Source: Nocardioides sp. cx-173 (GTDB lineage Bacteria > Actinomycetota > Actinomycetes > Propionibacteriales > Nocardioidaceae). Taken from it: DNA of 64,000 nucleotides. Location of the stretch: the NCBI RefSeq assembly GCF_021117365.1, contig NZ_CP088262.1, positions 930,001 to 994,000 on the forward strand, written 5' to 3'. The position numbers and the translations under genes were made by a program. Positions 6,743 to 55,393 of the stretch are shown in pieces (the first letter of the stretch is position 1; each line of letters begins with the position of its first letter). Under the pieces are notes generated by a model. The model was not told the DNA's origin. It saw nothing but the letters and a program-made list of their open reading frames with translations, and made no database searches.

Positions 6743-6777
6743 CGCTGACCCGTCAGAAACTTTCTGACGGGTCAGCG
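6743..6777. repeat. Palindromic intergenic repeat, copy 1 (35 bp)
   Basis: Perfect 17-bp arms (CGCTGACCCGTCAGAAA and complement) around one C. It stands 13 bp after the permease stop and 105 bp before the MarR gene. No extra half-site is seen beside this copy, and there is no T-tract. Confidence 0.9.
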
Positions 6778-6816
6778 TGATCGAGGCCTCACCGCGCTCG
6801 GGGCGAGCCCGGAATA

Positions 6817-6844
6817 GTTAGCATGGGTAATGACTTATGCTAAC
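6817..6844. promoter_or_regulatory. MarR operator overlapping promoter and start
   Basis: Perfect inverted repeat GTTAGCAT - 12 bp - ATGCTAAC. Its right arm overlaps a -10-like TATGCT (6836-6841), which ends 6 nt before the ATG at 6848. A bound dimer here would block transcription, so autorepression is likely. Confidence 0.72.
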
Positions 6845-6847
6845 GAT

Positions 6848-7294
6848 ATGCCTACCGTTGAGAAGGCCGCGCGCACCGACGCCGGACTCGCCTCCGAGCT
6901 CCGGCTGTCGGTCATGCGCCTGCGCCGGCGACTCGCCACCGAGCGCCACCCCGACAACGAGCTGAGCATGAACACCATGGCCGTGCTCGGCGCGCTGCAC
7001 CGCCACGGCGACCTGACGGTCGGCGAGCTGGCCCGCATCGAGATGGTGCAGCCCCCGAGCATGACCCGCACCGTCAACTTCCTGGTCGACGGCGGCTTCG
7101 CGAGCCGGCACCCCCACGAGACCGACGGCCGCCAGGTGCTCGTGGCCCTGACCGAACGCGGTCGCGAGACGCTCCTGGCCGACCGGGCCCGCCGCGACGA
7201 GTGGCTGGCGACCCGGCTCGGCACCCTGACCTCCGACGAACGCGCCGTGCTCCGCAGTGCGGCCCCCATCCTCGAAAGGCTGGCATCTGGTTGA
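6848..7294 (+). CDS. MarR-family transcriptional regulator
   Basis: 148 residues from the ATG at 6848 (154 from the ATG at 6830, which lies inside the operator). Winged-helix fold: [19 protein letters not shown] is the recognition region, [19 protein letters not shown] the wing. It probably represses itself and the following exporter-like gene, whose TTG start overlaps its stop by 4 bp (TTGA). MarR regulators usually respond to small phenolic or toxic ligands; the ligand is unknown. Confidence 0.9.
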
Positions 7295-8544
7295 GCCCCA
7301 CCTTCCGCTCGCTGCGCAACCCCAACTACCGGCTGTACGCCGCCGGCAACCTGGTGTCCAACGTCGGCACCTGGATGCAGCGCGTCGCCCAGGACTGGCT
7401 GGTCCTGCTGCTGACCGCCAACAGCGCGGCCGCGATCGGCATCACCACCGGTCTGCAGTTCCTGCCCTTCCTCCTGCTCTCGCCGGTGGCGGGCCTGGTC
7501 GCCGACCGGATCCCCAAGCGCCGGCTGCTCCAGATGACCAACATCGGCATGGCCGCTCCCGCGCTCGTGCTCGGTGTGCTCGCCATCACCGGCACGGTCC
7601 AGATCTGGCACGTCTATGTGCTGGCGCTGGTGCTCGGAGTGGCCTCGGCCTTCGACGCCCCCGCGCGCCAGTCGTTCGTCTCCGAGATCGTCGACGCCGA
7701 CGACCTCACCAACGCGGTGGGCCTCAACTCCGCCGGCTTCAACTCCGCGCGTCTGCTCGGCCCCGCGCTCGCCGGCGTCTCGATCGCCCTGCTCGGCTCC
7801 GGCGTCGTCGCCACCGGCTGGGTCATCCTCCTCAACGCGTTCACCTACATCGGCCCGATCGTCGCCCTCGCCCGCCTCGACGCCAGCACGCTCCATGTCG
7901 CCGACCTCGTACGCCGCCAGCCCGGTCAGATCCGCGCCGGCGTGTCGTACGTGCGCCAGCGCCCGGACCTGATGCTGATCCTCGGCATCGTGTTCTTCGC
8001 CGGCACCTTCGGCCTGAACTTCCAGATGACCTCGGCGCTCATGGCCACGCAGGTCTTCGACAAGGGCTCCGCGGAGTTCGGGATGCTCGGGACGTTCCTC
8101 GCGGTCGGGTCACTGACCGGCTCGCTGCTGGCCGCCAGCCGGACGCGGGTCCGCCACCGCCTGGTGGTGGGCGCCGCGGTGGTGTTCGGCCTCGTCGAGA
8201 TCGTGGCCGGGCTCGCGCCGTCGTACCTCACCTTCGCGCTCCTGTGCCCGGTCCTCGGCTTCCTCGCCCTGACCATGATCACCAGCGCCAACGCCTTCAT
8301 GCAGCTCAACACCGACGCGGGAATGCGCGGGCGGGTGATGGCGCTGTACATGATGATCTTCATCGGGGGGACGCCGCTGGGCGCGCCCGTGCTCGGGTGG
8401 GTCGGAGAGGTGTTCGGGGCCCGATGGACGCTCATCGGCGGTGGCGCCATGACCGTGGCCGGTGTCTTGTTCGCGAGCGCCGTGTACCTCCGGGCCAAGG
8501 CCCAACGCGAGGGACGCCCGGCCCGGGACCTGGTCCACGCCTGA
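7291..8544 (+). CDS. MFS transporter (DHA3/EntS-like exporter)
   Basis: 417 residues, about 12 membrane helices. [24 protein letters not shown] at the N-terminus (first helix) and [12 protein letters not shown] after helix 2 are typical of the MFS_3/EntS-like exporter group. TTG start at 7291 overlaps the MarR stop; GAAAGG 11 nt upstream can serve as ribosome binding site. Coupling to MarR and the shared operator suggest an inducible drug or metabolite exporter. Substrate unknown. Confidence 0.87.
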
Positions 8545-8573
8545 GACCCGGACCGCCCCGCCCCGACGGCGTT

Positions 8574-8602
8574 TTGACCGCGTTCGGGGCGCCCGGTAAT
8601 CT
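8574..8602 (+). promoter_or_regulatory. str operon promoter
   Basis: TTGACC (8574-8579), a 17-bp spacer, and TAATCT (8597-8602): a near-consensus housekeeping-sigma promoter about 140 nt before rpsL. Confidence 0.75.
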
Positions 8603-8741
8603 CGGTACTTGTGTCTGGCACGACCAGACCGTTGCGCGTGCCCAAATCCGGGCGCACTCACCACAGGCACACAGAACCATTGCAACACGCGTGCCCGGCA
8701 AGGCGCCGAGCACTGAGAGCTACATGAAAGGGAACCACCAG

Positions 8742-9116
8742 GTGCCCACGATTAACCAGCTGGTCCGCAAGGGCCGACAGGACAAGGTGTCCAAGAGCAA
8801 GACGCCTGCCCTGAAGGGTTCGCCCCAGCGCCGCGGTGTCTGCACCCGCGTCTACACGACCACGCCCAAGAAGCCGAACTCCGCCCTTCGCAAGGTCGCC
8901 CGCGTGCGCCTGTCGAGCGGCGTCGAGGTCACCGCCTACATCCCGGGCGTCGGTCACAACCTCCAGGAGCACTCCATCGTGCTCGTGCGCGGCGGCCGGG
9001 TGAAGGACCTCCCCGGTGTGCGCTACAAGATCATCCGCGGCACCCTCGACACCCAGGGTGTCAAGAACCGCAAGCAGGCCCGCAGCCGCTACGGCGCGAA
9101 GAAGGAGAAGAGCTAA
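8742..9116 (+). CDS. rpsL: 30S ribosomal protein S12
   Basis: 124 residues, full length. [12 protein letters not shown] and [11 protein letters not shown], the decoding-centre loops, are intact and carry the lysines whose mutation gives streptomycin resistance in other bacteria, so the allele looks wild type. GTG start at 8742 just after ACCAGG; the ATG 18 nt earlier gives a non-family extension. First gene of the str operon; its TAA shares one base with the rpsG ATG. Confidence 0.98.
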
Positions 9117-9586
9117 TGCCCCGCAAGGGTCCGGCCCCGAAGCGGCCGATCGACATCGACCCGGTCTACGGCTCGCAGCTGGTCTCCCAGCTCGTCTCCA
9201 AGGTCCTGCAGGACGGCAAGAAGCAGGTCGCGCAGCGCATCGTCTACGGCGCCCTCGAGGGCTGCCGCGAGAAGAACGGCACCGACCCGGTCGTGACGCT
9301 GAAGCGCGCGATGGACAACGTCAAGCCGTCCATCGAGGTGAAGTCCCGCCGCGTCGGTGGCGCCACCTACCAGGTCCCGATCGAGGTCAAGGGCACGCGC
9401 GGCACCACGCTCGCGCTGCGCTGGCTCGTCGGCTACGCCGCCGACCGTCGCGAGAAGACGATGTCCGAGCGGCTCATGAACGAGATCCTCGACGCCTCCA
9501 ACGGCCTCGGTGCCGCGGTGAAGAAGCGCGAGGACACCCACAAGATGGCCGAGTCCAACAAGGCCTTCGCCCACTACCGCTGGTGA
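9116..9586 (+). CDS. rpsG: 30S ribosomal protein S7
   Basis: 156 residues, standard length. [12 protein letters not shown] start, [20 protein letters not shown] and the C-terminal [21 protein letters not shown] are conserved S7 segments. Nucleates 30S head assembly on 16S rRNA. Translationally coupled to rpsL by a 1-base overlap. Confidence 0.98.
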
Positions 9587-9591
9587 CCTGT

Positions 9592-9620
9592 GCGTGAGGG
9601 GTACGCCGTACCCCTCACGC
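9592..9620 (+). promoter_or_regulatory. Intra-operon hairpin between rpsG and fusA
   Basis: Perfect 13-bp arms (GCGTGAGGGGTAC and complement) with a 3-nt loop, 6 nt after the rpsG stop and 40 nt before fusA. No T-tract. It may be a partial terminator, RNA-processing or stability element setting expression within the str operon. Confidence 0.6.
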
Positions 9621-9660
9621 CACCAGCACCCCAACAACTTCCGAGGGACTGAGACTTTCA

Positions 9661-11772
<2,112 letters not shown>

Positions 11773-11851
11773 CCCCCGCACGGGCCACACGCACCACGCA
11801 CCACCACGTCAAGTACGAGTCAAGTAACAACCACACCAGGAGGAGCCCACA

Positions 11852-13045
11852 GTGGCTAAGGCGAAGTTCGAGCGGACCAAGCCGCACGTCAACATCGGAA
11901 CCATCGGTCACATCGACCACGGGAAGACGACGCTGACCGCAGCAATCACCAAGGTGCTGCACGACAAGCACCCGGACCTCAACGCTGCTTCGGCGTTCGA
12001 GGACATCGACAAGGCTCCCGAGGAGCGTCAGCGCGGCATCACGATCTCGATCGCGCACGTCGAGTACCAGACCGAGGCGCGTCACTACGCGCACGTCGAC
12101 TGCCCGGGTCACGCCGACTACATCAAGAACATGATCACCGGTGCGGCTCAGATGGACGGCGCGATCCTCGTGGTTGCCGCCACCGACGGCCCCATGCCGC
12201 AGACGCGTGAGCACGTGCTGCTCGCCCGCCAGGTCGGCGTGCCGGCCCTGGTCGTGGCGCTCAACAAGTGCGACATGGTCGACGACGAGGAGCTCATCGA
12301 GCTCGTCGAGATGGAGGTGCGCGAGCTCCTCTCCGAGTACGAGTTCCCGGGCGACGACGTCCCCGTGGTCCGCGTCGCTGCCTTCCCGGCCCTCCAGGGT
12401 GACGAGAAGTGGGGCGAGTCGATCGTCGAGCTCATGAACGCGGTCGACGAGTACATCCCGACCCCCGAGCGTGAGACCGACAAGCCGTTCCTCATGCCCG
12501 TCGAGGACGTCTTCACGATCACCGGTCGCGGCACGGTCATCACCGGTCGCATCGAGCGGGGCATCATCAAGGTGAACGAGGAGGTCGAGATCATCGGCAT
12601 CCGCGAGAAGTCGCAGAAGTCGACGGTCACCGGCGTCGAGATGTTCCGCAAGCTGCTCGACGAGGGCGAGGCCGGTGAGAACGTCGGTCTGCTGCTTCGT
12701 GGCACCAAGCGCGAGGACATCGAGCGCGGCATGGTCGTCATCAAGCCGGGCACGTCCACCCCGCACACCAACTTCGAGGCCTCGGTCTACATCCTCTCGA
12801 AGGAGGAGGGCGGCCGTCACACGCCGTTCTTCAACAACTACCGCCCGCAGTTCTACTTCCGTACCACGGACGTGACGGGCGTTGTGACCCTTCCCGAGGG
12901 CGTCGAGATGGTCATGCCGGGTGACAACACCGAGATGTCGGTCGAGCTCATCCAGCCGATCGCCATGGACGACGGTCTGAAGTTCGCGATCCGCGAGGGT
13001 GGCCGCACCGTCGGTGCCGGCCGCGTCACCAAGATCACGAAGTAA
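11852..13045 (+). CDS. tuf: Elongation factor Tu
   Basis: 397 residues. [26 protein letters not shown] and NKCDMVD are the GTPase motifs; domains II and III are complete to RVTKITK. Brings aminoacyl-tRNA to the ribosome. GTG start behind a strong AGGAGG. A repeat copy lies 40 bp after the stop, and the next ribosomal gene (rpsJ) is 8.5 kb away. Confidence 0.98.
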
Positions 13046-13084
13046 GTCCGTGATCGCCGCCGGTCACTGACCGGCTCGATCCAC

Positions 13085-13147
13085 CGCTGACCCGTCAGAA
13101 ACTTTCTGACGGGTCAGCGTCATTTGCGGGGAGTTTCTGACGGGTCA
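13085..13147. repeat. Palindromic intergenic repeat, copy 2, with extra half-site
   Basis: Core 13085-13119 with perfect 17-bp arms around one C, then a 12-bp linker and a third half-site AGTTTCTGACGGGTCA (13132-13147). GACGGGTCA recurs 30 bp apart. Lies between tuf and trmB. Confidence 0.9.
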
Positions 13148-13181
13148 CCTCGGGCAGGACCGAGGGTAGGGAGCAGCGAGA

Positions 13182-13913
13182 ATGACGGGCATGAGCGAGC
13201 AGGCGACGGCGCGACCGCACATGAAGCTGACCGAGGACGGTCGGCGGCTGCGCCAGGTGCTGAGCTACTCGCGGCGGGGGAGTCGGTTCACCCCGAGCCA
13301 GCAGGAGGCGTGGGACGCACACCACCGCGACTGGGTCATCCCGGACGAGGCCGTGGACGAGCCCGGGTTCAGCTGGGCCGAGGTGTTCGGACGTGAGGCA
13401 CCGCTGGTGATCGAGATCGGCCCCGGCGTGGGCGAAGCGACCGGTGTGCTGGCGGCGGCGCGGCCGGACTGCAACGTGGTCGCGTTCGAGGTCTGGCTGC
13501 CGGGCGTCGCGGCGGGTCTCGCGGAGGTCGCGGCGGCGGGTGCCGACAACGTGCGGTTCTGCTCCGTGGACGCCGCGTGGTCCCTCGAGCACCTGGTGGC
13601 GCCGTCCTCGGTCCGCGAGCTGTGGACGTTCTTCCCCGACCCCTGGCCCAAGACCAAGCATCACAAGCGCCGGCTCGTGACGCCGGAGTTCGCCCGGCTG
13701 GTGGCCTCGCGCCTGGAGCCGGGCGGTGTCTGGCGCCTCGCGACCGACTGGGCGGCGTACGCCGTGCAGATGCGCCAGGTCCTCGACGCCGAGCCGGGTC
13801 TCGAGGGTGGGCAGGTGCCGCGCTGGGCGGAGCGACCCGTGACCAAGTTCGAGCGCAAGGGCGTCGCCGTCGGGCGCGAGATCGTGGACCTCGCCTACCG
13901 GCGCGTCGGGTAG
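13182..13913 (+). CDS. trmB: tRNA (guanine-N7)-methyltransferase
   Basis: 243 residues. SAM-binding EIGPGVGEATGVLA and the TrmB signature FFPDPWPKTKHHKRRL are present. Makes m7G46 in tRNA variable loops using SAM. ATG at 13182 is 8 nt after AGGGAG; a second ATG three codons on is possible. First gene after the str operon, separated from tuf by a repeat. Confidence 0.94.
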   Translation: MTGMSEQATARPHMKLTEDGRRLRQVLSYSRRGSRFTPSQQEAWDAHHRDWVIPDEAVDEPGFSWAEVFGREAPLVIEIGPGVGEATGVLAAARPDCNVVAFEVWLPGVAAGLAEVAAAGADNVRFCSVDAAWSLEHLVAPSSVRELWTFFPDPWPKTKHHKRRLVTPEFARLVASRLEPGGVWRLATDWAAYAVQMRQVLDAEPGLEGGQVPRWAERPVTKFERKGVAVGREIVDLAYRRVG

Positions 13914-13924
13914 TCAGGGGCGGG

Positions 13925-14731
13925 TCAGCGGCGCGACGTGAGCCGGTGGCGCAGCTGCGCCTCGCGACGCAGCCGGGCCTGGTCCCGCTCCCGCCGCGAG
14001 GCCACCACCGCGGCCAGGAAGTCCTCGGGCGGCGTGCCCGCGGGCGGCGCGGGCGCCACGTAGCGACGTACCTCGGTCGCGAGCTGGGTCGCCACCGCGG
14101 TGCGCGACTGCGGGTCGAAGGCGTGGTAGCGACCGAGGAACTGGCGCACCGCCAGGGCCAAGCCCGTCGGCAGCGTGGTGATGTCCGCCGTCCGCGCCCA
14201 GCCGGCGAGGTGCTGGGGCATCTGCGAGGGCACGGTGAGCCGGAGGGGCACCCGATCGCGGACGACGTAGGTGCCGGCGGCGAAGTCGCCCAGCCGCTTG
14301 CCGCGGGAGCTGACCAGCGCTGAGAAGAACGCCGGCGCCCCGCCGAAGGCGTAGATCTCGACGAAGCCGACGAGGGCGCGGGTGAACGCGTGCTGGAAGG
14401 AGATCGGACCGCCGTCGTCCCGCACGGTGCGCAGCCCCATCGCGAGCTTGCCGAGCGAGCGCCCGCGGGTCAGCGTCTCGAGGGTTGTGGGGATGACCAG
14501 GAACACCGTGATCAGGGAGCCGACCAGTGCGACGTGGTTGAGCGCGGCGTCGGCGTTGACGGCCGCGAGCAGGAACAGCATGAAGACGGCCACCAGCGAC
14601 AGCACCGTCGCGAGCACGTCGATCAGCCCCGACCCGATGCGCGCGGCCAGGCTGGCCGGCGGCAGGTCGAGCGCGACCGCCTCGCCGGTGACGAGGTCGT
14701 CGGTGGTGAGGGTGGCGAACTCCGGGGTCAT
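13925..14731 (-). CDS. RDD-family membrane protein
   Basis: 268 residues. SLAARIGSGLIDVLATVLSLV contains the R-D pair of the first RDD helix, and GRSLGKLAMGLRTV is the family's second signature; four to five hydrophobic segments, then a charged C-terminus after residue 190. Often found with SpoIIM-like, DUF58 and MoxR genes in actinobacteria, as here. Transport and envelope roles have been proposed for RDD proteins; its job here is unknown. Convergent with trmB, divergent from the SpoIIM-like gene. Confidence 0.85.
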   Translation of the reverse strand: MTPEFATLTTDDLVTGEAVALDLPPASLAARIGSGLIDVLATVLSLVAVFMLFLLAAVNADAALNHVALVGSLITVFLVIPTTLETLTRGRSLGKLAMGLRTVRDDGGPISFQHAFTRALVGFVEIYAFGGAPAFFSALVSSRGKRLGDFAAGTYVVRDRVPLRLTVPSQMPQHLAGWARTADITTLPTGLALAVRQFLGRYHAFDPQSRTAVATQLATEVRRYVAPAPPAGTPPEDFLAAVVASRRERDQARLRREAQLRHRLTSRR

Positions 14732-14755
14732 CGCGGTCAGTGTAGGTGCGAGTCT

Positions 14756-14782
14756 CGTCCGGATCGTCCGGATCGTCCGGCT
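14756..14782. repeat. Three 9-bp direct repeats
   Basis: CGTCCGGAT, CGTCCGGAT, CGTCCGGCT in tandem in the short divergent region between the RDD and SpoIIM-like genes, just upstream of the latter's -10-like hexamer. Possible binding-site array or simple slippage. Confidence 0.5.
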
Positions 14783-14792
14783 CGCCCCCGCC

Positions 14793-14798
14793 TAGAGT
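14793..14798 (+). promoter_or_regulatory. -10-like hexamer for leaderless SpoIIM-like gene
   Basis: TAGAGT ends exactly 6 nt before the GTG at 14805. This supports that GTG over the one at 14799. Confidence 0.45.
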
Positions 14799-14804
14799 GT
14801 GCGC

Positions 14805-15800: not shown

Positions 15801-15840
15801 CGGCGCCGCGCGGGGTGACGCACCCAGCTGCCGGGCGTTT

Positions 15841-15905
15841 CCCTGACGTTCTGGGCCAGAACTCCGGCCCAGAACGTCAGGGTTATCAGCAGATGCTGAT
15901 AACCC
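15841..15905. terminator. Double hairpin between convergent genes
   Basis: Hairpin 1: 17-bp arms (CCCTGACGTTCTGGGCC and complement, 15841-15882) with an 8-nt loop. Hairpin 2: 11-bp arms (GGGTTATCAGC and complement, 15880-15905) with an AGAT loop. The two share the GGG at 15880-15882, so they compete for it. Lies between the SpoIIM-like and DUF58 genes. Confidence 0.75.
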
Positions 15906-33465: not shown

Positions 33466-34284
33466 GTGGGACTGTTCGACCGCGGCATCGAGATCAAGTC
33501 GCCGGACCAGATCGACGCGATGCGTCGTGCCGGCCTCGTGGTGGGCGCCACGCTCGAGCTGATGCGCGCCAGCGTCCGCGCCGGTATCACCACCGCGGAG
33601 CTGGACGCGATCGCGGAGGACCACATCCGCTCCTCCGGCGCCGTGCCGTCCTTCCAGGGCTACCAGGGCTTCCCGGCGAGCATCTGCGCCTCCGTGAACG
33701 ACGAGGTCGTCCACGGCATCCCGGGGCCACGGGTGCTCGCCGAGGGCGACCTGGTCTCCATCGACTGCGGCGCCATCGTCGACGGGTGGCACGGTGACGC
33801 CGCCGTCACCGTCGCCGTCGGCCCGGTCACCGACGACCTCAGCGCGCTCATGCGGGTGACCGAGGAGGCGATGTGGCGCGGGATCGCGGCCGCGCGCCCG
33901 GGCGGCCGCGTCACCGACATCTCCCACGCCGTCGAGCAGCACATCCGCTCCGCCGGCGCCTACGGCATCCTCGAGGACTACACCGGCCACGGGATCGGCA
34001 GCCAGATGCACCAGCCCCCCGACGTACCCAACTACGGTCGGGCCGGCCGGGGCGCCAAGCTGGTCGAGGGCCTCGCGCTCGCAGTCGAGCCCATGGTGAC
34101 CCTCGGGACCAAGGAGAGCGTGCTGCTCGACGACGACTGGACCGTCGTGACGGCCGACGGCAGCTGGGCCGCCCACTTCGAGCACACCTTCACCCTGACC
34201 GACCGCGGCACCTGGGTCCTGACCGCCCTCGACGGCGGCGAGGAGATGCTGCGCCAGCTCGGTGTCCCCTTCGGCGGTCGCTGA
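33466..34284 (+). CDS. map: Methionine aminopeptidase, type I
   Basis: 272 residues. Metal ligands are recognisable: D in VSIDCGAIVDGWHGD (two Asp), H in GHGIGSQMHQPPDV, and E in LAVEPMV and EHTFTL. Removes initiator Met. GTG start 8 nt after adk. Its TGA stop is formed by the first half-site of repeat copy 3. Confidence 0.96.
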   Translation: MGLFDRGIEIKSPDQIDAMRRAGLVVGATLELMRASVRAGITTAELDAIAEDHIRSSGAVPSFQGYQGFPASICASVNDEVVHGIPGPRVLAEGDLVSIDCGAIVDGWHGDAAVTVAVGPVTDDLSALMRVTEEAMWRGIAAARPGGRVTDISHAVEQHIRSAGAYGILEDYTGHGIGSQMHQPPDVPNYGRAGRGAKLVEGLALAVEPMVTLGTKESVLLDDDWTVVTADGSWAAHFEHTFTLTDRGTWVLTALDGGEEMLRQLGVPFGGR

Positions 34285-34372
34285 CCCGTCACCAACTGCA
34301 CGCAATCACCGCTGACCCGTCAGAAAGTTTGTGACGGGTCAGCGGGCGTTGGCGTGAGTCGGCGACGGGTCA
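34280..34372. repeat. Palindromic intergenic repeat, copy 3, with two extra half-sites
   Basis: The fullest copy. Core 34310-34344 (one mismatched pair near the centre: GAAAG/TTTGTG). An upstream half-site CGCTGACCCGTCACCAACT begins at 34280 and contains the map stop codon; a downstream half-site AGTCGGCGACGGGTCA covers 34357-34372. Neighbouring half-sites in the same orientation are 31 bp apart on both sides. Confidence 0.88.
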
Positions 34373-40109: not shown

Positions 40110-40144
40110 CGCTGACCCGTCAGAAACTTTCTGACGGGTCGGCG
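40110..40144. repeat. Palindromic intergenic repeat, copy 4
   Basis: 35-bp core between rpoA and rplQ, 6 nt after the rpoA stop; one base differs in the right arm (GGTCGGCG for GGTCAGCG). Lies inside an operon that must be co-transcribed, so a full terminator is unlikely. Confidence 0.9.
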
Positions 40145-40799: not shown

Positions 40800-40862
40800 C
40801 GCTGACCCGTCAGAAACTTTCTGACGGGTCAGCGTCATTTCCGTGCAGTTGGTGACGGGTCG
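40800..40862. repeat. Palindromic intergenic repeat, copy 5, with extra half-site
   Basis: Perfect core 40800-40834, then linker and half-site AGTTGGTGACGGGTCG (40847-40862); GACGGGTC recurs 31 bp apart. Between convergent rplQ and the ketopantoate-reductase-like gene. Confidence 0.9.
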
Positions 40863-40875: not shown

Positions 40876-41829
40876 TCAGGTGGGGAGGACGGTGGCGGGG
40901 TCGACGCTGCGGGGAGCGCCACCGGAGCGGACCAGGTCGTGGGTGGCGCGCTGGATCGCCTCGTTGACCGGTGTCGGTACGCCGTGCAGCCGGCCGAGCA
41001 GCACGATCTCGCCGGCGAGATAGTCGATCTCCACGCCGCGGCCGCCGCGCACGACGCTCTGCCAGGTGGAGCCCCCCTCGCCGACGGGCAGCTGCTGGCG
41101 ACGCGCCAGCAGGTCGCCGCGGCGCTCGCGGTCCTCCTCGTCGGTGACCACGGGGACGCCGGCGAGCCGCAGCACCTGCTCGCCCTCCTCGCGGGCGCGG
41201 CGCGCCAGGTCGTCGGCGGCCGGGCCCGGCGTGCACACCGCGCCGACGCCATTGCCGAGGTTCATCAGCAGCTTGCGGTGCTTCCAGGCCATGATGTCGG
41301 GCCGGGGGACCGACTCGAAGCCGCCGCGGCGCAGGTCGGCGGCGATCGCCTCGGCGCGGGCGTCCACCCCACCGGCCGCCAGGCCCAGGTCGAGGATCCC
41401 GGGGCGGTAGCACTTCTGCACCACGACGCCCGGCTCCAGGTGGGTCGCGGGCAGCATCACGCACACGCCGTACGTCGCCGCGTAGCGGCGCAGCACGGTG
41501 AGCTCGTTGGCCACCCCGTTCTGGACGCACGCGATGGTCACGACGGCCGGCGCGTGGGCCCTCAGGTCGTCCAGGGCGGACTGCGTCTGGTGCCCCTTCA
41601 CGCACAGGAGCACGACGGTGTCGTCGGTCCAGGCGACATTGGCGGCGGTCTCGGCCGTGGGTGCGTCGACGCGGTGGCGGCCGTCGGCACGGTCCAGCAC
41701 CAGCCCGGCGGCCCGGATCCGCGCGAGGTGCTCCCCGCGGGCCACCAGCGTGACCGGGACCCCCGCCAGGTGCAGGTTCCCTCCGATGACCCCACCCACG
41801 GCACCTGTTCCGTACACGACGTAGCGCAT
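40876..41829 (-). CDS. Ketopantoate reductase-like (ApbA/PanE family) oxidoreductase
   Basis: 317 residues. N-terminal Rossmann motif YGTGAVGGVIGG binds NADP(H). Catalytic-region WKHRKLLMNLGN (Lys and Asn) and C-terminal GRGVEIDYLAGEIVLLGR with the family Glu are present. PanE makes pantoate for coenzyme A, but many paralogues act on other 2-oxo acids; no pan genes are adjacent, so the substrate is open. ATG at 41829 has GAAGG 7 nt upstream; an in-frame ATG at 41841 is possible. Confidence 0.86.
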   Translation of the reverse strand: MRYVVYGTGAVGGVIGGNLHLAGVPVTLVARGEHLARIRAAGLVLDRADGRHRVDAPTAETAANVAWTDDTVVLLCVKGHQTQSALDDLRAHAPAVVTIACVQNGVANELTVLRRYAATYGVCVMLPATHLEPGVVVQKCYRPGILDLGLAAGGVDARAEAIAADLRRGGFESVPRPDIMAWKHRKLLMNLGNGVGAVCTPGPAADDLARRAREEGEQVLRLAGVPVVTDEEDRERRGDLLARRQQLPVGEGGSTWQSVVRGGRGVEIDYLAGEIVLLGRLHGVPTPVNEAIQRATHDLVRSGGAPRSVDPATVLPT

Positions 41830-41847
41830 GTCGACCTTCATACCGGA

Positions 41848-46652: not shown

Positions 46653-46686
46653 GCCTTCCAGTATCACCACCTGCGAAACTGGGCGG

Positions 46687-47475: not shown

Positions 47476-48100
47476 GCACTACTTCTCCGCCGACCCGACG
47501 GTCGCCTTCAAGCGCTCGCCGGTCGTAGCGTCGGTGTGGGGTCACGAGCTCCACCTGACCAGCGGGTCGGGCGTCTTCGCCAACGGGCGCGTCGACATCG
47601 GCACGGCGATCCTGTTCCGCGAGACCACGCCCCCCGCCGGCGGCCGGATCCTCGACCTCGGCTGCGGGTTCGGCGTGATCGGGCTCGCCATCGCGGTTGC
47701 GTCGCCCGGGTGCGACGTGACGGCGGTCGACGTCAACGAGCGCGCGGTGCTGCTCGCCCAGGAGAACGCCACCGCGCTCGGCGTGGCGGACCGGTTCATC
47801 GCGGTCACCCCGGAGGGGGTCGACCCCGCCGCGACGTACGACGAGATCTGGTCGAACCCGCCGATCCGCATCGGCAAGCAGGCGCTGCACGAGCTGCTGC
47901 TCACCTGGCTGCCACGGCTGGCCCCCGGCGGGCGAGCCGTGCTGGTCGTCGGCAAGAACCTCGGCGCCGACTCGCTCCAGCGGTGGCTGGGGGAGCAGGG
48001 CTACCCGACCACCCGGCTCGCCAGCGCCAAGGGCTTCCGCGTGCTGGAGACGCGCGCCTACTCGGGCACGCCGCTCTCGGGCGGAGCGTCCTCGGCCTGA
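47468..48100 (+). CDS. Class I SAM methyltransferase (RsmC/RlmG-like)
   Basis: 210 residues. SAM motif I LDLGCGFGVIGLAIA, motif II AVDVNERAVLLAQEN, and catalytic-type NPPIRIGK. Corresponds to the methyltransferase half of RsmC/RlmG, which modify guanine in rRNA; the substrate here is inferred only. Its last 43 bp overlap the convergent ABC substrate-binding gene. No terminator is seen at that junction. Confidence 0.87.
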   Translation: MDEHYFSADPTVAFKRSPVVASVWGHELHLTSGSGVFANGRVDIGTAILFRETTPPAGGRILDLGCGFGVIGLAIAVASPGCDVTAVDVNERAVLLAQENATALGVADRFIAVTPEGVDPAATYDEIWSNPPIRIGKQALHELLLTWLPRLAPGGRAVLVVGKNLGADSLQRWLGEQGYPTTRLASAKGFRVLETRAYSGTPLSGGASSA

Positions 48101-49398
48101 CCCGAGGTGTCCTCCTCGATCGGGGCGTCCCCGATGTCGGAGACGAGCACGGGGGTCAGGGGCTCGGCCGCGCCGCCGCCCTTGATCTCGACCACGCGCA
48201 GTCCGGAGATGCCCAGGTGCGAGTCGGCGTTGAACCGGAACGGCGCGAGCTGCGGCCCCTCGAGGTCCTGGCCGCCCTCCTCGAGGGCCTCGACCAGCCC
48301 TTCGCGGGTCAGGTCCTCGCCGGCGGCCTGCAGCGCCTGGACGAACGCGTAGGCGTGGGACATGCCGTAGACCCGGTAGTTGGTCAGCTCGCCCTCCGTG
48401 CCGTGCTCGTCCCAGACCTTCTGCCACAGCTGCACCCACGGGTCGTCGGCCTGGTCGATGCCGGGGATGTACTCCGTGGTCAGCACGCCGTCGAGCGAGC
48501 TCGCGCCGCCCTCGACCGCACCCTCGGAGAACTCCGCGAGCAGCGACCCGACGAGGTCGGGGTCGGCGCCGACGTTGCTGTAGAACCACTGCGGCTGGTA
48601 GCCCAGCTTGAGCGACACCAGCTGGCTCAGGGCCGTGTACGACGGCGTGTTGAACGACAGCACGACGTCGGCGCCGGAGGCCTGCAGCCCCGCGATCTGC
48701 GGGCCGACGTCGGTGTTGCCCGAGGTGTAGCGCTCCACGCCGACGATCTGGTCGTCGAGGAACTGCCGCACGCCCTTCTCCGCGTCCTCCCCGAAGTCGT
48801 CGTCCTGCAGGAAGAGCCCCACCTTCGCGTCGGGCAGGTTCTCGGCGACGTACTGGCCGATGATCTTGCCCTCGATCTCGTAGTCCGGCTGCCAGCCGAA
48901 GGTCATGGGGCTCGTCTCGACGTCGTCGCCCCACTGCAGCGACCCCGACGAGACGAACAGGTCCGGCACGCCCTCCTCGTTGAGGAAGTCCACCACCGCG
49001 CTGTGCGTCGGCGTGCCCAGCCCGCCCACCATCGCGAAGATCTGGTCCTTCAGCACCAGCTCGTTGGTGACGGTGTTGGTGTTGGTCGGGTTGTAGGCGT
49101 CGTCCCTGACCAGGTACTCGATCTCCCGGCCGTGGACCCCGCCCTGGGCGTTGACGTAGTCGAAGTAGGCCTGCACGCCGGTCGGGATCTCGCTGTAGCC
49201 CGGGGCCGCCACGCCCGTCAGGGGGAAGTGGGCGCCGACGGTGATGGTGTCGTCGGTGACCCCGACGTCGCTGGCGCTGCCTGCGCCGCCTCCGCCGTCT
49301 TCGTCGGATCGGTCGTCACCTGCGCCGCAGGCGGCGAGCAGCACGAGTGCGGCCAGGGCGCCGGCGAGCGGCCCCGGCCTGGAGAGGCGTCGGTTCAT
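48058..49398 (-). CDS. Branched-chain-amino-acid-type ABC transporter binding lipoprotein (LivJ/K-like)
   Basis: 446 residues. Lipoprotein signal with LVLLAACGAG (Cys24), then a low-complexity linker and a type I periplasmic-binding fold: GAHFPLTGVAAPGYSEIPTG, EYLVRDDAYNPTNT, VGLFLQDDDFGEDAEKGV. Ligands of this family include amino acids, amides, urea and aromatic acids. Last gene of the liv operon, overlapping the permease by 4 bp; usually this gene comes first. Confidence 0.9.
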   Translation of the reverse strand: MNRRLSRPGPLAGALAALVLLAACGAGDDRSDEDGGGGAGSASDVGVTDDTITVGAHFPLTGVAAPGYSEIPTGVQAYFDYVNAQGGVHGREIEYLVRDDAYNPTNTNTVTNELVLKDQIFAMVGGLGTPTHSAVVDFLNEEGVPDLFVSSGSLQWGDDVETSPMTFGWQPDYEIEGKIIGQYVAENLPDAKVGLFLQDDDFGEDAEKGVRQFLDDQIVGVERYTSGNTDVGPQIAGLQASGADVVLSFNTPSYTALSQLVSLKLGYQPQWFYSNVGADPDLVGSLLAEFSEGAVEGGASSLDGVLTTEYIPGIDQADDPWVQLWQKVWDEHGTEGELTNYRVYGMSHAYAFVQALQAAGEDLTREGLVEALEEGGQDLEGPQLAPFRFNADSHLGISGLRVVEIKGGGAAEPLTPVLVSDIGDAPIEEDTSGQAEDAPPESGVPE

Positions 49399-50531
49399 GT
49401 GGGTGTTCCCTTCGAGGTGGTGGTGACGGGCTCGCTGGTGCTCGAGATGGGGTGCTCCGGGGGCAGGTCGGTCGCGGGCTCCGCGGTCGGTCGAGGGCCG
49501 GTACGCCGGTGGGCCAGCGCGCGCAGGGTCCCGACGACGCCACGGGGGGCGAGCAGGACGACCAGGACCATGACCAGCCCGTAGACGAGCGGCGCCAGCT
49601 CGGCGGCGCGGATGTCGGTGAGTCCGGCGGAGGTGCCCCAGTCGGTGACCACCTGCGGCAGGAACGTCAGCAGCGCGGCGCCGATCAACGCACCGGCCAG
49701 GCTGCCGAGGCCGCCCAGGACCACGGCGGTCAGCAGGGTCAGGCTCAGCGTCAGCGTGAACCCGCTGGGTGCCGCCAGCCGCACGGTGATCGCCATCATC
49801 GCGCCGGCGGCGCCCGCGGCGGCGGCGCTGACGACGAACGCCGACACCCTGGCCCGGGCCAGGTCGATCCCGGCCAGCTCGGCGGCGACCTCGCCGTCGC
49901 GCACGGCGCGCCACCGGCGCCCGACCCGGCTGCGCGACAGGTTGGCGAGCAGGACGAAGGTGACGACGAGGGTCAGCCAGGCGACGTACGCGACGTAGCG
50001 GCTGCGGGTGAGCTCCTGGCCGGTGACGAAGAACGCCAGGTCCAGCACCCACGCGGGGATCTCGGGCAGCACCACCCGCAGGCCCTGCTCGCCGCCCAGC
50101 TCCTGCTTGAAGAACAGCGCCACGCCGGGCACCGCGACGGCGAGCGCGAGCGTGGCGCCAGCGAGGTAGGGGCCGTGCAGCCGGGCGGCCGCGTAGCCGA
50201 CCGCGATCCCGACCACGAGGGTGACCGCGACGGCGGCGAGCACGGCCAGCGGCAGCGGCGTCGCGGCGTCCCGGTCAGGCAGGAGCAACGCCGTCGTGTA
50301 GGCGCCGATCGCCATCAGGGCACCGTGGCCCAGCGAGATCTGGCCGTTGACGCCGGTGAGGACGGTGAGGCCGCCGGCGGCGATGCCGAGGTAGGCCATG
50401 GACGCGAGCTGCAGGTTGCGGAAGTCGCTCGAGGTCTCCAGCACCAGGACCACGACCACGAGCCCGAGCACCGCGCCCACCAGGTGGCGCACCAGCGTGG
50501 CCTCCCGCCAGACCTCGCGCAGCCGGGGCAT
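49395..50531 (-). CDS. LivM-type ABC permease
   Basis: 378 residues, about nine to ten helices. GGLTVLTGVNGQISLGHGALMAIGAY is the LivM signature; GRRWRAVRDGEVAAELAGI is the cytoplasmic EAA-like loop contacting the ATPases. Long Thr/Pro/Ser C-terminus. ATG shares one base with the LivH stop. Pairs with LivH in the membrane. Confidence 0.93.
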   Translation of the reverse strand: MPRLREVWREATLVRHLVGAVLGLVVVVLVLETSSDFRNLQLASMAYLGIAAGGLTVLTGVNGQISLGHGALMAIGAYTTALLLPDRDAATPLPLAVLAAVAVTLVVGIAVGYAAARLHGPYLAGATLALAVAVPGVALFFKQELGGEQGLRVVLPEIPAWVLDLAFFVTGQELTRSRYVAYVAWLTLVVTFVLLANLSRSRVGRRWRAVRDGEVAAELAGIDLARARVSAFVVSAAAAGAAGAMMAITVRLAAPSGFTLTLSLTLLTAVVLGGLGSLAGALIGAALLTFLPQVVTDWGTSAGLTDIRAAELAPLVYGLVMVLVVLLAPRGVVGTLRALAHRRTGPRPTAEPATDLPPEHPISSTSEPVTTTSKGTPT

Positions 50532-51409
50532 CAGACCCGCCGCTGCGCGGCCGGGGCGAACAGGCCGCCCGGACGCAGGATCAGGACCAGCATCAAGATG
50601 GACAGTGCGGTCAGCGCGACGAGCTGCGAGCCGACGTACCCGCTCACGAAGCTCAGGGACAACCCCAGCAGCAGCCCGCCCAGGACGGCCCCGAGAGGGC
50701 TGTCCAGGCCGCCGAGCACGGCGGCCACGAAGCCGAACACCACGATCGAGTCCATGAACCCGGGGTGCACCAGGCTGCCGCCGGCGATCAGCAGCCCGGC
50801 CAGCGACCCCACGAGCGAGGCCAGGGCCCACCCCAGCGTCAGCATGCGGCCGACCCGGACGCCCAGGAGCCTCGCGACCTCCTGGTTGAACGCGGCCGCC
50901 CGCATCCTCAGCCCCACGTCGGTGTAGCGGAACAGCGCCACGAGGAAGGCCATCACAACGAGCACGGCGGCGATGGAGAAGAGGCCGAAGCCGGTGATGC
51001 CCAGCGTCGTGTCGCCGACCTCGATCCCGCGCACGCCGAACGGCGCGGGGAAGGAGCGGTAGCGGTTGCCGAAGACCACCGAGGCGAGGGCGTGCAGGAC
51101 GATGAAGAGTCCGAGGGTGAGGATGACCGAGTTGATCTCCGGCTTGCCCTCCACCGGCCGGATCACCACCCGCTCGGTCACCGCCCCCAGCACCAGCCCG
51201 CTGAGCAGGGCGAGGGCGAACCCCAGCCAGTAGGAGTAGCCGGCGTCGATCACCGCCAGGGCCACGAACGTCGTGATCATCGCCATCGGCGCCTGGGCGA
51301 AGTTCACGATCCTGGTCGAGCGCCAGATCATCACCAGCGCAAGGGCGAACGCCGCGTAGACCATGCCGAGGGTGAGGCCGCTGAGCGCGGTGTTGACGAA
51401 CTGCTGCAC
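50531..51409 (-). CDS. LivH-type ABC permease
   Basis: 292 residues, about eight helices. GLTLGMVYAAFALALVMIW and TRIVNFAQAPMAMITTFVAL at the N-terminus and MRAAAFNQEVARLLGV as the EAA loop are typical of LivH. 17 nt after livF. Confidence 0.93.
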   Translation of the reverse strand: MQQFVNTALSGLTLGMVYAAFALALVMIWRSTRIVNFAQAPMAMITTFVALAVIDAGYSYWLGFALALLSGLVLGAVTERVVIRPVEGKPEINSVILTLGLFIVLHALASVVFGNRYRSFPAPFGVRGIEVGDTTLGITGFGLFSIAAVLVVMAFLVALFRYTDVGLRMRAAAFNQEVARLLGVRVGRMLTLGWALASLVGSLAGLLIAGGSLVHPGFMDSIVVFGFVAAVLGGLDSPLGAVLGGLLLGLSLSFVSGYVGSQLVALTALSILMLVLILRPGGLFAPAAQRRV

Positions 51410-51426
51410 GAGATCTCCTGTCCTGC

Positions 51427-52128
51427 TCAGAAGCCGAGGTAGGCGTGGCGGAGCTGGTCGTCGTCGGCGAGGACCGCCGCGTCGGCGCTCGCGACGACGC
51501 GCCCGAGGTTGAGCACGACGCCGTGGTGGGCGATGGAGAGCGCGCTGCGGGCGTTCTGCTCGACGAGGAGCACGCTGAGCCCGTCGCTCTCCACCAGCGA
51601 GCGCAGGAGGTCGAAGATCTGGGTGACGATGCGCGGCGCCAGCCCGAGCGAGGGCTCGTCGAGCAGCAGCATCCGGGGTCTCGACATCAGCGCGCGACCG
51701 ATGACGAGCATCTGGCGCTCGCCCCCGGAGAGCACGTGGGCCACCGCCGCACGCCGGTCCGCCAGGGCGGGGAAGAGGTCGTAGACCCGCTCCAGCTCCG
51801 CGGCTCGCACGCGGCCGCGCACGAGCGCGCCCAGGCGCAGGTTCTCGTCGACGGTGAGCTCGGTGATGACGCCGCGGCCCTCGGGCACCTGCGCCAGGCC
51901 CAGGGCGGGCATCATCTCGGCCGGGAGCCGGTCGACCCGGGTCCCGTCCAGCTCGATCCTGCCGCTGTGGCTGCGGACCAGGCCCGAGATGGTGCGCAGC
52001 AAGGTGGTCTTCCCGGCGCCGTTGGCGCCGAGCACCGCGGTGATCCGCCCCCGCTCGGCGCTCAGCGAGACGCCGTGCAGGGCCCGCACCGGCCCGTAGC
52101 TCGTCGACAGATCCTTCACGACCAGCAC
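51427..52128 (-). CDS. LivF-type ABC ATPase
   Basis: 233 residues. Walker A GANGAGKTTLL, signature LSGGERQMLVIGRALM, Walker B MLLLDEPSLGLAP, and H-loop region VEQNARSALSIAHHG. Energises uptake with LivG. One base from livG. Confidence 0.94.
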   Translation of the reverse strand: MLVVKDLSTSYGPVRALHGVSLSAERGRITAVLGANGAGKTTLLRTISGLVRSHSGRIELDGTRVDRLPAEMMPALGLAQVPEGRGVITELTVDENLRLGALVRGRVRAAELERVYDLFPALADRRAAVAHVLSGGERQMLVIGRALMSRPRMLLLDEPSLGLAPRIVTQIFDLLRSLVESDGLSVLLVEQNARSALSIAHHGVVLNLGRVVASADAAVLADDDQLRHAYLGF

Positions 52129-52129
52129 C

Positions 52130-52945
52130 TCAGGCCTCCCCGCCGCCGACGGCCTCGCCGAGGTACGCCGCCAGGACGGCCGGGTCGTCGCGCACCTGAT
52201 CGGGGGAGCCCTGCGCGATCACCCGGCCGAAGTCGAGGACCGTGATCTCGTCGCAGACGCGCATCACCAGGTCCATGTGGTGCTCGACCAGCATCACCGC
52301 CATCCGGGTGGTCAGGCCGCGCACCAGCTCCCCGAGGTCGTCCATCTCGCCGGTCGACAGTCCGCTCGCGGGCTCGTCGAGCAGCAGCAGGTCGGGCTCC
52401 CCGGCCAGCGCACGAGCGAGCGCGACCCGCTTCCGCACCGCGTAGGGCAGGCTCGCGGGGTAGCTGGCGGCGTACTGGGAGATGCCGAGGTCGGCGAGGA
52501 CCCCGCGGGCGCGCTCCCGGATCTCACGCTCCTCGCGCGAGGCGCGGGGGAGCGCGAGGAGCGAGGAGAGGAACCCCGAGCGCGCGTGGTGGTCGGCGCC
52601 CACCATGACGTTCTCCAGCACCGTCACGCGGTCGAACAGACCGAGTCCTTGGAGGGTGCGGGCGATCCCGAGGCCGGCGAGCTCACGTGGGCGCAGCCCG
52701 CCGAGCTCCTGGCCCCGCCAGCAGATCCGGCCACGGTCGGGGACCACGAACCCACAGGCGACGTTGAACAGGGTGGTCTTGCCGGCGCCGTTGGGCCCGA
52801 TCACGCCGAGCACCTGGTGCGGGCGAGCCGTCAGCGCGACGTCGCTCAGTGCGGTGATGCCGCCGAAGGTGACCGTCACGTCCGTGACCTCGAGCTGCGG
52901 ACCGAGTGCCCCCGGCCGGGCGACGCCCGCCAGCGTGTGGCTCAT
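52130..52945 (-). CDS. LivG-type ABC ATPase
   Basis: 271 residues. Walker A GPNGAGKTTLFNV, Walker B LLLLDEPASGLS, and VEHHMDLVMRVCDEITVL. The signature loop SLPYAVRKRVALARAL reads PYAVRK in place of LSGGQ, as often seen in LivG (LPYGxQR). First gene of the operon; divergent from the PucR-type gene with two palindromes between. Confidence 0.93.
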   Translation of the reverse strand: MSHTLAGVARPGALGPQLEVTDVTVTFGGITALSDVALTARPHQVLGVIGPNGAGKTTLFNVACGFVVPDRGRICWRGQELGGLRPRELAGLGIARTLQGLGLFDRVTVLENVMVGADHHARSGFLSSLLALPRASREEREIRERARGVLADLGISQYAASYPASLPYAVRKRVALARALAGEPDLLLLDEPASGLSTGEMDDLGELVRGLTTRMAVMLVEHHMDLVMRVCDEITVLDFGRVIAQGSPDQVRDDPAVLAAYLGEAVGGGEA

Positions 52946-52972
52946 GCGCTACCTCCGCAGGTGTGCTGTGAC

Positions 52973-52991
52973 GCGCACCACTGTGGTGCGC
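52973..52991. promoter_or_regulatory. Palindrome 1 in livG/pucR intergenic region
   Basis: GCGCACCA - CTG - TGGTGCGC. Candidate operator 28 bp from the livG start. Confidence 0.5.
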
Positions 52992-53008
52992 AGCGCACAG
53001 GTTGCGCA

Positions 53009-53025
53009 TTGGGCGCAGCGCCCAA
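53009..53025. promoter_or_regulatory. Palindrome 2 in livG/pucR intergenic region
   Basis: TTGGGCGC - A - GCGCCCAA, 36 bp (centre to centre about 35) from palindrome 1. Candidate second operator, sequence different from the first. Confidence 0.5.
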
Positions 53026-53086
53026 CGATCGCTGTCTCAATGCCGCCTCTCGCGAAGGACCCTGGTCAGAACTGTGCGGAGAGTGC

Positions 53087-53092
53087 GAATCT
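53087..53092 (+). promoter_or_regulatory. -10-like hexamer for leaderless PucR-type gene
   Basis: GAATCT ends 6 nt before the ATG at 53099. No ribosome binding site. Confidence 0.35.
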
Positions 53093-53098
53093 CTCCTC

Positions 53099-54343
53099 AT
53101 GCCAGCTCGCAGCGCAGGCTCGGCCTTCCCGCGGCCCGCCGGTTCCCAGCCGGACGACGCGGCGGTGCTCCACGACGTCGAGGCCGCCTGGGCGGCGCTG
53201 CGTCCCCGGGCCGACGAGATCGCGGACACGATCACGCTGACCCTGCTCGTGCGGGACTCGGAGGTCTACGAGCGGGTGGGGCCCGAGCTGCGCGTCGACG
53301 TGCGCGACAGCACCCGCGAGCACATCCGGCGCGGGATCGAGGTCCTGGCCGGCACCAGCGACGCGCCGTCCTCGGCGATCGAGCTGTGGCGTGAGACGGG
53401 CCGTCGCCGGGCGCGCCAGCTGGTCCCGCTCGAGACGGTCCTCAACGCCTACACGCTCGGCACCCGGGTGCTGTGGGAGGCGCTGGTCGACTCGGGCCGC
53501 ACCACGGGGGCGGTCACCGACGAGCACGTGCTGCTCGTGGCGGGCCAGCGGGTCTGGTCCGCCCTGGACGTGCAGAACGGCGTCCTGGTGGAGGCCTACC
53601 GGCGCGAGAGCACCCGCATGCAGCGCCAGGACCTGCAGCGCCAGCAGAGCGCCCTGGACGCGCTGGCCGAGGGGCGGGGTGCGGACCCGCAGTTCGCGGA
53701 GGAGGCGCGCGACCTGCTGGGCATCGCCGCCGACGCCCGGGTCGCCTGCGTGGTGGCGCTGTTCGACGGCTCCCTCGACGAGCCGCTCGGCGCGCTCGAG
53801 GACCGGCTGGAGCGCGTGGAGGTCAGCTGTCACTGGCACGTGCGCACGGGTCGCTACTTCGGGCTGCTCTCCGGGCCGATCCCCGACGACGGCGAGCTGG
53901 TGGCGCTGATCGAGCCCCATGCCACGGGGAGGGTGGGGATCGCCGCCTCGCCGGAGGGGGTGGCCGGTTTCGCGACGGCGTTCCAGCTGGCCACGCGGGC
54001 CGCCGAGACGCTCGCGCGGGGAGAGGCACGGGTCGTCTCGGTCACCGATCGGCTCCCCGAGGTCCTGCTGGCGGGCAGCCCCCAGGTCACGCCGCTGCTG
54101 ATGCGCGAGACGCTCGGCCCGCTCCTGGCCCAGCCCGAGCCCCTCGGGTCCACCCTGCTCGAGACCCTGGCGGCGCTGCTGCGCCACGACGGCTCGCCCA
54201 CGCACGCGGCCGAGGAGCTCTTCTGCCATCGCAACACCGTGATCTACCGGGCCCGCCAGATCGAGGAGATCACCGGGCGCACCCTGACCTCGCCGCGCGA
54301 CAAGATGCTGCTCTCGCTGGCGCTGATGGCGCGCGGGCGCTGA
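53099..54343 (+). CDS. PucR/CdaR-type transcriptional regulator
   Basis: 414 residues. N-terminal helical sensor-like domain (about 20-190, with ARQLVPLETVLNAYTLGTRV as in RsbR-like/CdaR proteins), a middle GGDEF-like CdaR region, and a C-terminal PucR helix-turn-helix: HAAEELFCHRNTVIYRARQI (about 374-393). Such regulators often activate a neighbouring catabolic or uptake operon; the divergent liv-type operon is the obvious target. Ligand unknown. Confidence 0.87.
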   Translation: MPARSAGSAFPRPAGSQPDDAAVLHDVEAAWAALRPRADEIADTITLTLLVRDSEVYERVGPELRVDVRDSTREHIRRGIEVLAGTSDAPSSAIELWRETGRRRARQLVPLETVLNAYTLGTRVLWEALVDSGRTTGAVTDEHVLLVAGQRVWSALDVQNGVLVEAYRRESTRMQRQDLQRQQSALDALAEGRGADPQFAEEARDLLGIAADARVACVVALFDGSLDEPLGALEDRLERVEVSCHWHVRTGRYFGLLSGPIPDDGELVALIEPHATGRVGIAASPEGVAGFATAFQLATRAAETLARGEARVVSVTDRLPEVLLAGSPQVTPLLMRETLGPLLAQPEPLGSTLLETLAALLRHDGSPTHAAEELFCHRNTVIYRARQIEEITGRTLTSPRDKMLLSLALMARGR

Positions 54344-54351
54344 CGCCGGAC

Positions 54352-55284
54352 TCAGTCGGCGAGACGACCGTCGACGAACATCGTCAGCCGGGTGATCGTC
54401 TGCCGGTCGTCGCCCGCGATGTGGCCGTTGACGGCGCGGCACGCCCAGCCGAGACGGGTCGCGACCCGCGCGGCTTCGGCGAGGTCGGCGGCGGTGAGCC
54501 GCGGGTAGGCGTCGGCGTACGGCGCGAGGTAGGCCTCGCGGAACGGCGTGACGTCGACGGAGCCCGCCACGTCGTCGAGGCCCCACGCGAGCACGCCCTC
54601 GAGCGTGACCGAGAGCGTGAAGAACGGGTGGGACACGCAGGCGTCGCCCCAGTCCATGACCCAGTGCCGTCCGTCGCGGACGAACACCTGACCGTCATGG
54701 AGGTCGTCGTGCTGCACCGTCTCCCGGATGCCGTACGGCGCGAGGTCGCGGGCGAGCGACCGGACCCTCGCGCCGGCCTCCCGGAAGCGCGGCTCGGCAC
54801 CGATCTGGTCCATGAGCGCGTCGTACCTCTGGGGCAGCGTCTCGAGGCGCAGGTCCGGGACGCCGAGGGCGAGCAGGGCCTCGATGTCGTCCTCGAGCGC
54901 GAGCTGGATCCGGGCGGTGCCGGCGAGCACGTCGACCCACCGCTCGAGGCTCTCTTCGACCTGTACCAGCTCGCGCAGCCGGTGCCCGGCGTCGCTCATC
55001 AGCAGCCAGCCGCGCTCAGTGTCGGAGGCGAGGAGCGCCTGCACAAGGTCCGGCACCCTGTCCGCGAGCAGGTCGACCAGGGCCGCCTCGTGCATGAGCG
55101 GCCCGTGGTTGGCCTTGAACCACACCGGCCCGCCCTGCGTGGGCACCCGCAGCACCGTCGACCACACCTCCGCGTGCGGCTGCTCGATGTCACCGGTGCG
55201 GATCAGCCCCAGCGCCCCCAGCCGGTCGTCGATCCAGGCATGCGCCCCCGCCAGCCATGCGGGGTCGGTCCACAGATGCGCCAC
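54352..55284 (-). CDS. Aminoglycoside-phosphotransferase-fold (APH-like) protein
   Basis: 310 residues. Kinase-like: catalytic loop VQHDDLHDGQVFV (Brenner motif, HxDLHxxQ) and metal-binding VMDWGDACVSHPF; an N-lobe Lys in VWFKANHGPL. The fold covers antibiotic, choline, maltose and other kinases; resistance should not be assumed. Convergent with the PucR-type gene (8 nt). Confidence 0.82.
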   Translation of the reverse strand: MAHLWTDPAWLAGAHAWIDDRLGALGLIRTGDIEQPHAEVWSTVLRVPTQGGPVWFKANHGPLMHEAALVDLLADRVPDLVQALLASDTERGWLLMSDAGHRLRELVQVEESLERWVDVLAGTARIQLALEDDIEALLALGVPDLRLETLPQRYDALMDQIGAEPRFREAGARVRSLARDLAPYGIRETVQHDDLHDGQVFVRDGRHWVMDWGDACVSHPFFTLSVTLEGVLAWGLDDVAGSVDVTPFREAYLAPYADAYPRLTAADLAEAARVATRLGWACRAVNGHIAGDDRQTITRLTMFVDGRLAD

Positions 55285-55330
55285 GCCCGAGTGTCTCGCG
55301 CCCCCGCAGCACCGCCACCACCCGTTTTTT

Positions 55331-55393
55331 CGCTGACCCGTCAGAAACTTTCTGACGGGTCAGCGGGAAGTGGCGCGAGTTGGTGACGGGTCA
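55331..55393. repeat. Palindromic intergenic repeat, copy 6, with extra half-site
   Basis: Perfect core 55331-55365, preceded by a TTTTTT run (55325-55330), then linker and half-site AGTTGGTGACGGGTCA (55378-55393); GACGGGTCA repeats 31 bp apart. The TGA stop of the acyl-CoA dehydrogenase (minus strand, 55393-55391) lies in the half-site. Confidence 0.9.

Follow-up and report, generated by a model that had tools for sequence, protein, structure and literature searches.

The window analysed here is a stretch of 64,000 nucleotides of the Nocardioides chromosome under study (G000; 4,445,725 bp, about 4.45 Mb). It contains six copies of a 35-bp palindrome, all of which lie where a first, sequence-only reading had placed them (Table 1). 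As had been noted, four of them are perfect palindromes with 17-bp arms; the remaining two have one broken pair each. Four copies possess extra half-sites beyond the palindrome, and the distance to these, previously put at 30-31 bp, is exactly 31 bp throughout the window. The genes that flank copy 4 carry RpoA and L17 domains, which agrees with their earlier naming. An Rfam search returned only the L17 leader (RF03132, 40136-40193); this ribosomal-protein leader starts within copy 4's right arm and thus overlaps the palindrome. The statement that T tracts are missing except at copy 6 was too strong, as TTT begins 3 nt past the stem at copies 2 and 5. The tract beside copy 6, TTTTTT at 55325-55330, lies on the exit side of the minus-strand gene 55391-56539, the exit side being the side from which transcription leaves, and its position is that expected of a T tract serving leftward transcription.

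Table 1. Palindromes and extra half-sites in the window (window positions).
Feature	Position	Strand	Remarks
Copy 1	6743..6777	.	perfect palindrome without extra half-site; between a permease gene, whose stop lies 13 nt before it, and a MarR-like gene
Copy 2	13085..13119	.	perfect palindrome, 3' of the EF-Tu gene
Copy 2, extra half-site GACGGGTCA	13139..13147	+	at 31 bp from the inner half-site; G009 has GGCGGGTCA here, equally spaced
Copy 3, left extra half-site (TGACCCGTC on +)	34282..34290	-	31 bp; its TGA serves gene 33466-34284 (M24 peptidase) as stop codon
Copy 3, palindrome	34310..34344	.	one broken pair
Copy 3, right extra half-site	34364..34372	+	31 bp
Copy 4	40110..40144	.	between rpoA and rplQ; one broken pair; without extra half-site
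Copy 5	40800..40834	.	perfect palindrome 3' of rplQ; convergent with 40876-41841 (-)
Copy 5, extra half-site GACGGGTC, then G	40854..40861	+	31 bp
Copy 6	55331..55365	.	perfect palindrome at the 3' end of gene 55391-56539 (acyl-CoA dehydrogenase, minus strand)
Copy 6, extra half-site	55385..55393	+	31 bp; its TCA is the minus-strand stop codon of 55391-56539

In a pattern search of the whole chromosome, the palindrome TGACCCGTC-N11-GACGGGTCA has 70 exact matches and 77 with at most one mismatch, and the reversed control palindrome has none in either search. The word TGACGGGTCA occurs 100 + 95 times (control 0 + 1); at most 180 of these 195 words are attributable to the 70 exact palindromes and to 40 exact direct half-site pairs, and at least 15 lie elsewhere. 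Within the window, the 14-mer at up to two mismatches has 20 matches where 2.5 are expected, and none of 100 shuffles got to 20. The 40 direct pairs are those found genome-wide in the searched gap; their spacing is 31 bp in 39 cases and 30 bp in the remaining one. The sequence-only reading would have fallen had the genome held only these few copies or had the 31-bp spacing not been conserved elsewhere; with 77 near-exact copies and 62 extra half-sites at 31 bp, neither is so, and the family is real and chromosome-wide.

Gene context was assigned with a simple codon-usage gene caller for 69 of the 77 elements, which were fetched with 1.5-kb flanks (68 of the 70 exact and one of the seven one-mismatch copies). 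All but one (68/69) are intergenic, the exception being placed inside a called gene. The flanking genes are convergent for 32 elements, in tandem for 34 and divergent for two, so that 66 elements have a gene end beside them. Convergent junctions thus account for 32 of 68 elements, whereas of 75 pairs of neighbouring genes in the window only 10 are convergent. One element lies directly 3' of a tRNA-Leu gene. Where a side with an extra half-site (an armed side) faces a gene end, the TGA of that half-site is the stop codon of the gene in 29 of 49 cases; on unarmed sides the palindrome gives the stop in 4 of 49. These stops speak for a mobile element of the REP or MITE type that is moved by some other enzyme and lands at stop codons, the phasing of half-sites being the element's own layout. 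In the same direction points that the stops at 34284, 55391, L053, L055 and L119 have, as judged by eye, homologous stops in the related genome G163, where the family palindrome is missing.

As RNA, seven segments over the six window copies fold far better than shuffled sequences (z from -5.0 to -7.9). A run of at least three T after the stem is seen on 23 of 45 armed exit sides, compared with 2 of 19 armed sides of the other kind (p 0.002, in a test devised post hoc) and 3 of 53 unarmed exit sides; as 50 of the latter are without it, many copies look poor as intrinsic terminators. The sequence-only reading had held that the sites are something "rather than simple terminators", which is half right: in view of their terminator-like placement, hairpin folding and exit-side T runs, the sites are probably terminators and something more. 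It may be asked whether the RNA hairpin alone acts, as in ordinary intrinsic terminators, an efficient hairpin having been duplicated or converted over the chromosome, with the extra half-sites as by-products or alternative 3' arms. The strong hairpins and the exit-side T runs fit this explanation, as does the predicted RNA fold of copy 2, in which the left arm pairs with the outer half-site. The same holds for the rpoA-rplQ junction, where G112, G163 and G009 possess hairpins of different sequence with compensatory differences between species. For a stem, however, the fixed word, the fixed 31-bp spacing of drifting linkers and the all-or-none outer half-sites are unnecessary.

In the 69 fetched elements, extra half-sites accompany 64 of the 138 palindrome arms, 62 at 31 bp and two at 30 bp. 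Both sides carry one in 12 elements, the right side alone in 28 and the left side alone in 12, and 17 elements have none. All 62 at 31 bp match GACGGGTC in full (8/8 core bases), whereas the other 74 sides, scored at the same offset with the one element within a called gene omitted, show one mismatch in no case, two or three in seven and four to eight in 67. Further exact half-sites up to 393 bp away are restricted to two in the same orientation (at 37 and 173 bp) and two in the opposite one (at 251 and 344 bp). The intervening linker has kept its length and diverged in sequence, as had been described, but this drift is not wholly free, since AGTT is retained before the outer half-site and an ATT tendency is seen at +21 to +23. 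Elements with a single extra half-site are polar, the central base of the palindrome being C on the strand that reads toward it in 36 of 40. A tie between extra half-sites and gene ends was considered and rejected (49 of 98 sides facing a gene end are armed and 15 of 38 facing a gene start, p 0.34), and so was a replication polarity, as the orientation of extra half-sites has no pattern across the chromosome quarters. The TGA offsets 0, 31 and 50 do cover all three reading frames, but we give this no weight, because two spacings manage so by chance in two of nine cases.

Beyond this chromosome, the more general pattern GACCCGNC-N4-16-GNCGGGTC has 44 to 169 matches in 17 of 215 genomes of the genus, with 36 in the next highest and 0 to 10 for controls. 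In an order-wide scan of 391 genomes, all 271 outside the genus have at most 8 (controls up to 7); these per-genome counts were taken from lists by eye. A scan of named genomes gave at least 120 matching stretches; among those listed, several per genome were found mostly in Nocardioides and scattered ones in other bacteria. On an L17 tree of 29 relatives, the five high-copy rows need five changes, of which well-supported branches make at least three unavoidable, and the high-copy trait is therefore patchy. The inner word differs by carrier: it is GCTGATCAGC or AGTGATCACT in G086, GCCCATGGGC in G133, GCGTATACGC and variants in G138, and GACCCGCCCGAAASTTTCGGGCGGGTC in G009, which has it in common with the more distant G189. 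Several GACCCGGCAC...GTGCCGGGTC palindromes in G005 suggest another dialect. For N. dokdonensis FR1436, ten CRISPR-like repeats without cas genes have been described (PMC5526307), and these could be such palindrome arrays.

In G009, the 17 fetched loci contain eight extra half-sites with the 31-bp spacing, each of them on the C side, and three other matches at 17 and 21 bp; if the window-equivalent stretch is added and the old-dialect core is also allowed, 11 half-sites are found at 31 bp, the only distance considered, again all on the C side. By eye, six of the 17 G009 loci and three of five matched window sites have their gene end in common with a G000 element. Six cases have the third half-site in both genomes; in five of them it has changed along with the palindrome, the exception being L149/L201. 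Beside their new-dialect palindromes, the G009 loci L201 and L226 have kept GACGGGTC, the outer half-site of the old dialect, which looks as though a palindrome switched as one unit. Between G000 and G009, six orthologous linkers agree at 4 to 9 of 12 positions, on average 5.8, where all 682 pairs average 4.6; this is only suggestive of vertical descent. Of 17 matched G000 sites, six share their place with G163, as judged by eye, and 13 of 53 loci from other carriers share a gene end with G000, likewise by eye and without a computed chance level.

In seven carriers the palindromes also stand in tandem, and their spacings below 90 bp fall at 40-45 bp (92 of 100), 51-55 bp (5), 62-63 bp (2) and 82 bp (1); seven other genomes with few loci have none in this range. 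Together with the 31 bp of G000 and G009, the spacings correspond to about 3, 4, 5, 6 and 8 helical turns. The phasing rests mainly on the one class of 92, many of the spacings stem from local tandem repeats, and periods anywhere between about 9.5 and 12 are compatible with them. In G215, where three spacing classes occur together (n=19), a period of 10.5 bp gives a coherence of 0.82 and periods of 10 to 12 do about equally well; spacings within one array are not independent. A protein that reads one face of the DNA, as the sequence-only reading had suggested, gains indirect support from these near-whole turns in sister genomes and from the all-or-none half-sites at 31 bp. Phased arrays would also suit sites that organise the chromosome by way of a nucleoid, supercoiling or insulator protein, are placed at gene ends where they do least harm, and affect termination only secondarily. 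Their dispersal over the whole chromosome, with an orientation of half-sites that does not vary by quarter, and the preference for convergent junctions could be explained in this way. The T runs, however, follow the direction of transcription, and relatives possess other hairpins at the same gene ends (L047, L056, 34284), so we regard such an organising role as very unlikely.

Whether RNA pairing is what preserves the palindrome can be judged from how often the inner positions of the two arms match, compared with the number expected if the two arms varied independently. Matches are as expected in G086 (10/24 against 11.8), G164 (28/42 against 27.6) and G133 (15/19 against 15.2). They exceed expectation in G138 (15/15 against 11.4) and G215 (18/31 against 9.3), and weakly in G000 (52/69 against 48.0) and G114 (5/6 against 2.8). 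G029 is mixed, with 29/29 against 27.0 at the outermost position and 5/29 against 6.4 at three positions, and one further genome with three palindromes is uninformative. Arm pairing is thus above chance in G138 and G215, and weakly in G000, G114 and the outermost position of G029, as an RNA stem would give. On the whole, these data favor a half-site reading in homogeneous families and are compatible with a role of the RNA. The arms of G086, G164 and G133 pair no more than chance, which likewise speaks against the hairpin alone, and we consider it unlikely that the hairpin alone accounts for the sites.

The mobile REP-like unit that the sequence-only reading had offered as its other possibility finds no support in its known form. 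In a profile search of 215 genomes of the genus for the Y1/RAYT transposase family PF01797, whose positive controls matched in 5 of 14 known genomes, there was no match in G000 or in any of the 17 high-copy genomes; the single match came from G161, which is not high-copy. The REP/RAYT reading fails because PF01797 is absent from all 17 high-copy genomes, and we have rejected it. For an element moved by another enzyme, the patchiness of high copy number on the L17 tree can be added to its coincidence with stop codons. Against it stand the missing Y1 transposase, as far as the PF01797 search goes, and the sister genomes, which have other layouts at the same helical spacing. Also, the half-sites are invariant and the linkers diverged, which suggests old copies under selection and not a recent spread. 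We therefore think that mobility, too, is an unlikely explanation.

A candidate for a reader or driver of the family is an AbiEi-like gene, the nearest homologs of which are named very-short-patch-repair endonuclease. It lies between two elements in G000 (L053:1718-2545) and in G029 (L011, L012) and beside one in G138 (L191), whereas in G163 these neighbours are found without it. As the gene has 2121 homologs and most of the searched loci surround elements anyway, we treat it as a lead and no more.

As the data call for both a sequence-specific DNA reader and a function at gene ends, most simply termination, our preferred explanation is that the elements are bidirectional gene-end terminators that double as operator arrays for a putative sequence-specific DNA-binding protein reading one face of the helix. 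We put this forward tentatively, at somewhat less than an even chance. Against it speak the many unarmed exit sides without a T run, the above-chance arm pairing in some genomes, the dominance of one spacing class and L149/L201, where the outer half-site did not follow the palindrome. Such a protein would bind the phased half-sites on one helix face, and once bound it might form a roadblock at the hairpin, or a little past it, and in this way assist termination. A change in its specificity could then drive the concerted change of the half-sites, and the best reading of the dialects is that the putative reader coevolves fast with its half-sites. A bolder version, which we hold to be rather doubtful, would see in the elements a gene-end punctuation of Nocardioides, with a dedicated protein, a species-specific word, arrays at 3, 4, 5 or 6 turns and a bidirectional roadblock, where a drifting specificity drags along about 200 half-sites per genome and thereby gives rise to the species dialects. 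If true, bacteria would have their own equivalent of roadblock termination by a protein, and the joint evolution of a single reader with hundreds of dispersed sites could be followed as a natural experiment. It also becomes testable how dispersed palindromes remain homogeneous and change in concert between species without a Y1 transposase, and the comparison of the high-copy genomes G000 and G009 with their close low-copy relatives G112 and G163 offers a direct route to the missing factor.

In the literature searched, we found no description of this palindrome family. Among the closest known systems are the REP/BIME elements with their RAYT proteins. These elements are short palindromes outside genes, present tens to hundreds of times, arranged in arrays and in species-dependent families (PMC2817692, PMC3733652); the main text of the second paper contains neither of the word stems "Actinobacteri" and "Nocardi". 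The Nocardioides palindromes are likewise extragenic, high-copy, arrayed and different by species, and with 77 copies, 68 of 69 intergenic, they agree in size and placement with REPs as extragenic palindromes of 20-40 bp in high copy number. They differ in that they lack a Y1/RAYT gene and show a fixed helical phasing of half-sites. Nor was the unpaired GTAG or CGTC end tag of REPs found, as the inner palindrome has CGC...GCG as its flanks and CGTC occurs within the stem only.

Also close are the DNA uptake sequences of the Neisseriaceae, inverted pairs of which act as terminators. As in the Nocardioides family, these sequences form species-specific dialects of a short word (PMC3630211), and for Haemophilus, terminators made of inverted USS pairs and about 1300 USS copies in H. 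influenzae are described (PMC5217627). Uptake words are very many and mostly single, whereas the 195 TGACGGGTCA words found here genome-wide stand mostly in palindromes and extra half-sites. A third such system is the operators of the CIRCE/HrcA type, in which a spacer of about 9-11 bp separates two 9-bp arms of invariant sequence. The Nocardioides elements resemble them in their invariant 9-bp arms around a similar spacer, but lie at gene ends instead of promoters, in 77 copies and with phased extra half-sites.
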